A program made the position numbers and the translations under genes. A stretch of 34,083 nt of DNA. It comes from a gamma proteobacterium HTCC2207. GTDB lineage: Bacteria; Pseudomonadota; Gammaproteobacteria; Pseudomonadales; Porticoccaceae. Shown here piece after piece: positions 321 through 3,387 of this stretch (position 1 is the stretch's first letter; every line of letters starts with the position of its first letter). Below the pieces are notes generated by a model. That model ran no database searches and was not told where the DNA came from. It was given only the letters and a program-made list of their open reading frames with translations. The stretch covers positions 1 through 34,083 of the forward strand of contig CAJIZU010000080.1 of NCBI GenBank assembly GCA_905181925.1. Reading direction: 5' to 3'.

Positions 321-368
321 GTGTTTTCAATGCTTGGATTTATTGGGTAAATCTGCTTAAATAAAAAT

Positions 369-455
369 ATGATTTTCTTGAAAAGCCTTCTTAACGTTCG
401 TGACCGCGCATTGGATGCGCCGTCTTTGCGTGCTCTGCTAGTTCTCCTGCCCTGA
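369..455 (+). CDS. Putative leucine-rich leader peptide MIFLKSLLNVRDRALDAPSLRALLVLLP (leuA attenuation leader)
   Basis: ATG at 369, TGA at 453-455; 28 aa, 9 Leu, C-terminal cluster SLRALLVLLP; about 180 nt upstream of leuA. No clear Shine-Dalgarno. Confidence 0.5.
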   Translation: MIFLKSLLNVRDRALDAPSLRALLVLLP

Positions 456-591
456 GGGGCATCTATCGTTATACCTCAAAAGTAGTGTTAAGCGGACATG
501 ATTCGCTAAAAGTAGCGCTCCATTGTGTAGAACTTGTCATTTTCCGGCGCGTCCATAAGCGAGTAGAATATAAAGTCGATTGCGTTCTACA
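453..591 (+). promoter_or_regulatory. Candidate attenuator/leader RNA of leuA with alternative hairpins
   Basis: TGAGG(453-457)/CCTCA(474-478); AGCG(491-494)/CGCT(504-507) competing with CGCTA(504-508)/TAGCG(513-517); TGTAGAAC(526-533)/GTTCTACA(584-591). Confidence 0.35.
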
Positions 592-635
592 ATAGGATCA
601 CTCGATAGGTATGGTTTTGAAAAGGTAATTTGACC

Positions 636-2183: not shown

Positions 2184-2941
2184 TGGTTGATGCTGTTCGG
2201 CATCATTATATAAAAACACTCGGTATTGTAGAATACATACCGAGAGGTTTTGTCGATGATAGCGAAAAGAGTGTGCCTTCAGCGCAGGACGAACCATCTA
2301 AAGAGACCAGGACAGCGATAATCGGTCAACTTTTAGCCGATCATGGGGGGACGCCAAAGGTTTTGGTTACTGGCAGTTCGCCTGCGGAAGTATCACCTGA
2401 CATCCCGACCGATGAAAGTGTGACTTCTGTAGAGTTGGCCTCAGTTGCCAGTGGCAGTATTGAAGTGAGAATAGCACTCTGGCAGCCTCATGATAAATTA
2501 CTTGTCTGTAGCGTCCTAGATGATGAGCTACCGGGCCCTGAGCATACTCAGTTGTTGACTAATATTCTCATCTCAATGGGTCATAACAGCGGAGCTTTGC
2601 CTCAGTTCGAGATTGCACAATGGCCGCCATTTGCCAATATGCAGGATGGGGAGGCAGATGCTAGAGAATTTTTGTCGACGCTTATTAGTGCCAGGTTGGA
2701 AAGTAGTCAGACGGAAATGATATTGATGTTAGGTTCAGTGACAACTGATTGGATACTGTCAGATCAGCAAAAATCTGATCTTAAACATGGACAAGTAAAG
2801 ATTGATGAGCATGTCATTGCGGTTGTAATCCCATCACTGACCGACATGATTGCACAACCTGAATTAAAACGTCATGCGTGGGATATTATTAGACCTTTAG
2901 CGCCCAACGGTGAGGTTCATCGGCAGCAAGAGACGCCATGA
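2183..2941 (+). CDS. Putative DNA polymerase III psi (HolD-like) subunit; uncharacterised protein upstream of rimI
   Basis: N-terminal YIKTLGIVEYIPRG recalls HolD LQQLGITQW; C-terminal PSLTDMIAQPELKRHAWDII recalls HolD ASPALTDLRANPTARAALWQQI; immediately upstream of rimI as in E. coli holD-rimI. Confidence 0.55.
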   Translation: MVDAVRHHYIKTLGIVEYIPRGFVDDSEKSVPSAQDEPSKETRTAIIGQLLADHGGTPKVLVTGSSPAEVSPDIPTDESVTSVELASVASGSIEVRIALWQPHDKLLVCSVLDDELPGPEHTQLLTNILISMGHNSGALPQFEIAQWPPFANMQDGEADAREFLSTLISARLESSQTEMILMLGSVTTDWILSDQQKSDLKHGQVKIDEHVIAVVIPSLTDMIAQPELKRHAWDIIRPLAPNGEVHRQQETP

Positions 2942-3387
2942 CCGCCAGCGCTAGCTCAGTTGATGTACGCCAAATGATTTATAATGATCTTGATGCAGTG
3001 CTTGAAATTGAACAAGGAAATGCCAAACATGCCTGGAGCAAAAAGCAGTTTAGCGATGCGCTTCAGTCCATTCAGGTTTTGGTAGTAGATCAAAAAGTAG
3101 CAGGATTTATCGCGCTGATAACCATTCTTGATCAAGCTGAATTACAAAATATCTCGATTCATAATGATTATCAGCTATTGGGTTATGGTGAGTATTTGCT
3201 TGCTCATGCCGTCAATCATCTTGCTTATAGCGTTAATAAAGTCTATCTAGAGGTAAGGGTCACCAATTTCTCGGCAATTCGTTTGTATAATAAGGCCGGG
3301 TTCACAGAAATTGGTCACCGAAGAGGGTATTATCCGACTGAGTTAGGTCGAGAAGATGCGCTAATCATGTGCTTAAACATTGAATGA
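2938..3387 (+). CDS. rimI: Ribosomal protein S18 alanine N-acetyltransferase
   Basis: GNAT fold: YQLLGYGEYLLAHAV, VYLEVRVTNFSAIRLYNKAGFTEIGHRRGYYP, typical of RimI; overlaps the upstream gene by 4 nt. Confidence 0.9.
   Translation: MTASASSVDVRQMIYNDLDAVLEIEQGNAKHAWSKKQFSDALQSIQVLVVDQKVAGFIALITILDQAELQNISIHNDYQLLGYGEYLLAHAVNHLAYSVNKVYLEVRVTNFSAIRLYNKAGFTEIGHRRGYYPTELGREDALIMCLNIE

Follow-up and report, generated by a model that had tools for sequence, protein, structure and literature searches.

A candidate leucine leader-peptide attenuator of a variant type upstream of leuA in SAR92/HTCC2207 and other Gammaproteobacteria

The usual account of leucine attenuation in Gammaproteobacteria is based on the leuL of enteric bacteria, which works with a terminator. 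Enterobacterial leuL and Shewanella leuA attenuators switch between an antiterminator and a terminator (PMC2659441). Upstream of actinobacterial leuA there is the LEU element, which has a leader peptide with a run of Leu codons and no terminator (Seliverstov et al. 2005, PMC1262725). In the LEU element the Leu run pairs with the leuA Shine-Dalgarno box to give the base stem, and a conserved pseudoknot lies between them (PMC1262725). In the present work copies of this element were found in Streptomyces and Sanguibacter. The locus discussed here lies in a stretch of 34,083 nucleotides, referred to as the window, which belongs to an incomplete MAG (1.35 Mb, 76% complete) of the genus SAR92/HTCC2207. 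An earlier note on this DNA had claimed a Leu-rich leader ORF at 369-455 upstream of leuA as a candidate leucine leader. The ORF is present at 369-455, and the candidate is strongly supported by synonymous conservation of its Leu codons, by its recurrence across the class and by a promoter fixed at its ATG.

In the window leuA occupies 636-2183 on the plus strand and encodes a 2-isopropylmalate synthase (profile matches to HMGL-like, 7e-96, and LeuA_dimer, 2.9e-36). The incomplete ORF at 3-320 corresponds to the end of pssA, a full-length copy of which is present in locus L003. On the other side of leuA, an ORF of 252 codons (2183-2941) overlaps the leuA stop codon and lies directly 5' of a RimI-like GNAT gene (2938-3387); it has no Pfam match, and its position suggests that it is holD. 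The features of the region between pssA and leuA are as follows.

334-339, plus strand: -35 element TTGGAT (class consensus TTGGCA) of the best-scoring promoter, found without using the ATG
354-362, plus strand: extended -10, TGC followed by TTAAAT (hexamer at 357-362); the genus alignment reads TGnTTGAAT/TTAAAT
369, plus strand: predicted transcription start at the A of the leader ATG, the seventh nucleotide after the -10
369-455, plus strand: leader ORF MIFLKSLLNVRDRALDAPSLRALLVLLP plus stop, 28 codons, ending RALLVLLP-stop, with orthologues in 45 genus loci
435-449, plus strand: Leu-rich putative sensing codons CTG CTA GTT CTC CTG (L L V L L), with synonymous Leu conservation
448-461, plus strand: hairpin P1, TGCCC-TGAG-GGGCA, with the last Leu/Pro codons in its 5' arm and the stop codon in its loop
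453-478, plus strand: post-stop segment TGAGGGGCATCTATCGTTATACCTCA, near-invariant in the main genus clades and diverged in L042-L048
491-517, plus strand: alternative hairpins AGCG/CGCT and CGCTA/TAGCG, present only in L002-L006, the close clade of the window
584-593, plus strand: GTTCTACAAT, the genus element GTTYTACAAT, found in most genus loci and here 42 nt upstream of leuA
619-625, plus strand: putative leuA Shine-Dalgarno sequence GAAAAGG, read from the sequence

The leuA gene was located in 49 of 50 genomes of the same genus, and 47 upstream loci were examined. In 45 of the 47 the leader ORF is conserved together with its Leu codons and the bases that surround the stop; the leaders of L025 and L044 are cut by contig ends and fall outside this count. 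Genus leaders are typically 27-33 codons long and end in R/G-L-L-L-L-L-P-stop followed by GGGGC, with TGA as the stop codon in 41 loci and TAA in 4. L018 retains the leader frame and has no ATG. In L029 and L033 the ORF is enlarged by in-frame repeats (LFSGSLFTASLFTFSG) between the start and the Leu run, which shows that the middle of the peptide is free to vary. As the earlier reading expected, Leu codons in the leaders of relatives are kept synonymously. In three sets of leaders the counts are 146 against 134.5 (sd 3.2), 175 against 150 (sd 4) and 189 against 166 (sd 4), where the null is independent shuffling of codon columns and the observed count was reached in none of the 500 shuffles for any set. 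The Leu fraction in the same three sets is 0.48-0.57 in frame and 0.02-0.17 in the other frames.

The leader is not confined to the genus. A blind scan of GTDB genomes with the motif CTSCTGCCCTGAGGGGC found matches that include Chromatiaceae, Methylococcaceae, Thiosymbion, Sedimenticola, Methylomonas and Porticoccus. Almost all gammaproteobacterial matches lie 86-220 nt upstream of leuA, which is not true of matches in other phyla, and the genome of the window has a single exact copy of the motif. To avoid circularity, 101 leuA upstream regions across the class were picked by LeuA similarity alone and searched for an ATG ORF of 14-50 codons that has 4 or more Leu among its final 12 codons and Leu-Pro within the last 8. 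Such an ORF was found in 70 of the 101 regions, compared with a mean of 0.9 in shuffles and none on reverse complements, although the regions come from the better half of LeuA matches and the class frequency is perhaps overestimated. The suggestion that the ORF could be due to chance can be set aside on its conservation in the genus. The class leader, a Leu-rich ORF with P1 on its last Leu-Pro codons, sits about 80-280 nt before leuA, and the window copy, with 183 nt between its stop and leuA, fits this arrangement. Since the same arrangement precedes leuA in most of the sampled Gammaproteobacteria, a genuine switch that senses leucine is very probable. The window element is a real, conserved candidate leucine leader-peptide attenuator of a variant type.

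The most conserved structure of the leader is P1, with arms TGCCC (448-452) and GGGCA (457-461). It is kept in all 45 genus loci, a count to be read with caution as those loci were located by this motif. Class relatives have the form CTGCC-NNNN-GGCAG with GNRA, UUCG or CUUG loops. In a class set that was itself selected for the stem, the loops include GUAA, GUGA, GCAA, UUCG, CUUG, UUAG and CUAG, and the arms vary among CUGCC/GGCAG, UUACC/GGUAA, UUGCC/GGCAA and CUACC/GGUAG. A non-circular test used the 70 leaders chosen by the coding criteria. A stem of at least 5 bp on the Leu-Pro codons was found in 60 of them against a null of 6.4 (maximum 14), and several of the remaining ten have, by eye, shorter or shifted stems. 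The stop directly follows Leu-Pro in 44 of the 70 leaders and is displaced in 26 (for example LLPSGRD-stop and LLPLGR-stop), with LLP and the hairpin retained; the hairpin and Leu-Pro thus outweigh the position of the stop in the loop. The role of P1 in the switch is putative, because P1 masks neither the ribosome-binding site (RBS) nor a terminator. A GGGGC/GCCCC cross-pairing between P1 and a later hairpin was rejected, as it fails for the CUGCC/GGCAG types.

The earlier note had placed the stop codon in a different stem, TGAGG/CCTCA. The two strings are at 453-457 and 474-478 and are conserved in the main genus clades, but they are lost in L045-L047, and the better-conserved P1 stem had been overlooked. 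As TGAGG shares a strand with P1, its pairing with CCTCA would be an alternative to P1. Further downstream, the mutually exclusive hairpins AGCG(491-494)/CGCT(504-507) and CGCTA(504-508)/TAGCG(513-517) that it described are present, but they are clade-limited, occurring in L002-L006. The compensatory stem changes that such hairpins might be expected to show amount to one, CGCTA/TAGCG to CGTTA/TAACG in L003, which supports the second hairpin. The long-range pair of TGTAGAAC (526-533) with GTTCTACA (584-591) was rejected as a functional structure. Its coordinates were confirmed. The 3' half belongs to an element conserved throughout the genus, whereas the nearest relatives L003 and L004 lack the 5' half, and the pair is not conserved. 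The global fold of the window leader is not more stable than shuffles (z -0.27).

The GTTYTACAAT element is nearly invariant across the genus about 40-85 nt upstream of leuA. It is often accompanied by a hairpin 3' of it (for example GAGCC..GGCTC), immediately ahead of the Shine-Dalgarno sequence, and it has the look of a -10 that lacks its -35, or else of an RNA element.

The predicted promoter of the window has a 17 nt spacer between its -35 and -10 and puts the first transcribed base at the leader AUG, which would make the ORF leaderless; this was one of the options left by the earlier note and it fits the promoter geometry. The window promoter was not listed by a stricter consensus promoter scan. 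Exact TTGGCA is present in 38 of 70 de-replicated leaders from outside the genus. The predicted start falls 0-2 nt before an in-frame ATG in 32 of 44 genus leaders and in 28 of the 70 de-replicated others, compared with about 1-2 expected, and in many other leaders the gap between predicted start and ATG is 20-30 nt.

The best explanation, and the one we think probable, is a leucine-sensing leader-peptide attenuator of leuA that is leaderless, lacks an intrinsic terminator and is translational in most relatives. RNA polymerase would start at, or 1-2 nt from, the AUG of the 28-codon ORF, so that the RNA would offer ribosomes a leaderless end for loading. With charged tRNA-Leu in short supply the ribosome would stall at the Leu codons in the 3' part of the ORF, and when leucine is ample it would reach the stop inside P1 and then leave. 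In most relatives the leuA RBS would be masked in the OFF state by pairing with the Leu-codon run, which lies immediately 5' of P1 and is then free. In the ON state the stalled ribosome would cover the Leu run and the RBS would be freed, a readout that could work without an intrinsic terminator. The parts of this proposal that draw support from the sequence are the coding leader, P1, the promoter position, the absence of a terminator and the co-variation of Leu run and RBS across the class. The stalling, the sign of control, leucine as the signal and the readout in the sub-clade of the window, where the RBS helix is not evident, are what we infer.

With GC content corrected for, Leu runs pair more strongly with the leuA RBS of their own species than with that of other species (z -6.3 for 141 leaders and z -4.5 for 93 de-replicated ones). 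Controls that paired the upstream ORF with the RBS, the Leu run with other regions, or the post-stop segment with the RBS were near zero or opposite, with the one exception of the Leu run against leuA +3 to +23, which is mildly positive (z 1.7 overall and 2.6 outside the genus). The Leu run tracks the bases beside the Shine-Dalgarno sequence, as in UUCCUUCUCC/GGAGAAGGAA (L010), GCUGCUCC/GGAGCAGC (L059) and UACUACUCC/GGAGUAGUA (L069), and for one subgroup of the genus a helix between the Leu run and the RBS is part of the consensus fold. Within the genus after de-replication (n=16) the pairing is a trend only (p 0.06-0.15), and in the window a helix between the Leu run and the RBS (GAAAAGG) is not predicted (P = 0.0), unlike in many relatives. 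The pairing of Leu runs with their own RBS across the 93 leaders favours translational attenuation, in which the Leu codons would both sense leucine supply and mask the leuA RBS. P1 versus TGAGG/CCTCA, and the Leu-run/RBS pairing, are compatible with mutually exclusive structures set by the position of the ribosome.

Translational readout is therefore our best guess and Rho the main rival. The same leader sensor could have a Rho-dependent readout, in which, once the ribosome has left at the stop in P1, the C-rich, G-poor RNA after P1 is a rut site and the stalled ribosome or the resulting structure blocks Rho; tnaC and corL are precedents for such a readout. In 89-92% of leaders the RNA that directly follows P1 has more C than G (C 0.22-0.31 against G 0.14-0.20), and over the final 60 nt ahead of leuA the bias is the other way round. 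This makes Rho-dependent termination possible, as do the lack of intrinsic terminators and the long untranslated stretch of 86-245 nt. The C over G bias is weak evidence by itself, however, and the co-variation of Leu run and RBS would be unexplained, so that we consider Rho unlikely as the readout, while giving it more weight than the rivals that follow.

The leader ending LLP-stop could instead be a TnaC-like leucine-sensing arrest peptide that stalls at Pro-stop when free leucine is high. Leu-Pro is found in nearly all of the 141 leaders, a set partly selected for Leu-Pro, and the stop position in the 44 leaders noted above would suit it. The Pro codon is also constrained by P1 pairing, though, and with the stop dispensable in 26 of 70 leaders Pro-stop is not invariant; the arrest peptide was rejected as very improbable.

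It is less probable still that the leader is a protein-bound structured RNA with an incidental or untranslated ORF. The conservation of P1 would agree with this, as would a second hairpin elsewhere in the class, P2, which consists of CCUGGCGAGG followed by ACGC and is found in L200, L221, L232, L273 and about 40 other class leaders. P2 has a UGGCGA loop and a CC/GG stem with varying outer pairs. Its loop GCG goes with downstream CGC (32 cases) or CGU (4), and loop ACG goes with CGU only (3), a co-variation which suggests that P2 forms a small pseudoknot of 3 bp. A hairpin with a candidate GCG/CGC pseudoknot is present in 43 of 168 upstream regions that were not selected by genus. P2 in the form CCUGGCGAGG..ACGC is absent from the SAR92 genus of the window, and in the window the model R1 (P1 plus P2) scored only 11.2 bits (E 0.21) at 443-507. 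A search of 299 genomes of the phylum with R1 gave mostly hairpin noise of about 20 bits and was dropped as a guide to distribution. Against a protein-bound RNA stand the synonymous Leu conservation, the maintained frame and the promoter fixed at the ATG.

A Leu-rich leader upstream of leuA and mutually exclusive hairpins in the window recall the classical leu attenuators of E. coli, Salmonella and Shewanella, in which transcription stops at an intrinsic terminator, but attenuation of this kind is the least credible of the readings, since a scan of the window for a stem with a U-tract found no intrinsic terminator, only 13 of 141 leaders have a hairpin of -9 kcal/mol or better with even 4-5 T after it (weak cases), and Rfam searches, a permissive one included, returned nothing relevant to the window, with Leu_leader (RF00512) among the families. 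The remark in the earlier note that there is no classic stem plus U-tract is thus confirmed, and the translational or Rho-dependent options it named fit where a classical terminator does not.

Two side observations come from other bacteria. In L304 (Actinobacteria MAG YU_71_112) leuA follows a short ORF with the end SLLLT-stop and a strong hairpin that runs into TTTTTT, an actinobacterial arrangement that resembles a classical leu attenuator. The LeuA of Pseudomonas is of another type, and for this reason a result from P. putida, though suggestive, is left out of the evidence. P. putida without TruA has LeuA up 4.2-fold (PMC7822408), as would be expected for Leu-codon attenuation.

For a gammaproteobacterial leuA leader of this design we found no Rfam family and, in the open-access library that was searched, no description. 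The data point to a design that differs from the enteric one and is apparently more widespread, in which the start is leaderless, the stop lies in a hairpin and the Leu codons can pair with the leuA RBS. If true, codon usage in a sensor ORF would here evolve together with a ribosome-binding site, in a case simple enough to test, and leader ORFs that are naturally leaderless would become known in large number. A bolder proposal, tentative and in our judgement somewhat short of an even chance, is that one ancestral leaderless leader is spread across the Gammaproteobacteria, that its Leu codons both sense charged tRNA-Leu and, when free, close the leuA ribosome-binding site as an anti-Shine-Dalgarno strand, that transcription termination has no part in it, and that it shares its design with the actinobacterial LEU element through convergence or deep descent.

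By our comparison the LEU element is closest in logic to the gammaproteobacterial leader, followed by the terminator-type leu attenuators, Campylobacter LeuL, leaderless trpL and ilvB-OMG. The ilvB-OMG and ilvB-II uORF motifs (PMC10272879) are likewise candidate branched-chain amino-acid attenuators with a uORF, but they belong to ilvB instead of leuA, a terminator closes the ilvB-II model, and neither has an Rfam match to the window. The trpL of Sinorhizobium meliloti (PMC7298713) is an attenuator leader ORF whose RNA begins at the AUG, as is predicted here; it differs in belonging to trp and to Alphaproteobacteria and in acting by transcription attenuation. In Epsilonproteobacteria, Campylobacter among them, LeuL (PMC3847290) is, like the window leader, a 28-aa leader with C-terminal Leu codons, and it precedes leuABCD, but the candidates were sought with a ribosome-binding site and their short RNAs end just past the stop, which indicates transcription termination. 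Enterobacterial leuL (RF00512, Leu_leader) and the Shewanella leuA attenuator share with the window a Leu-rich leader peptide before leuA, whereas the window has no terminator, a start that looks leaderless, a stop in a hairpin and no Rfam match. The LEU element belongs to another phylum and another type of leuA (N-terminal DLRDGNQ), its conserved leader-Shine-Dalgarno pseudoknot is lacking in the window genus, and the copies inspected have no LP-stop hairpin P1; the likeness is one of logic. The two have in common a leader peptide with a run of Leu codons and the lack of a terminator. A base stem between the Leu run and the leuA Shine-Dalgarno sequence may be a further likeness: it is supported across the gammaproteobacterial class and is not evident in the window copy.
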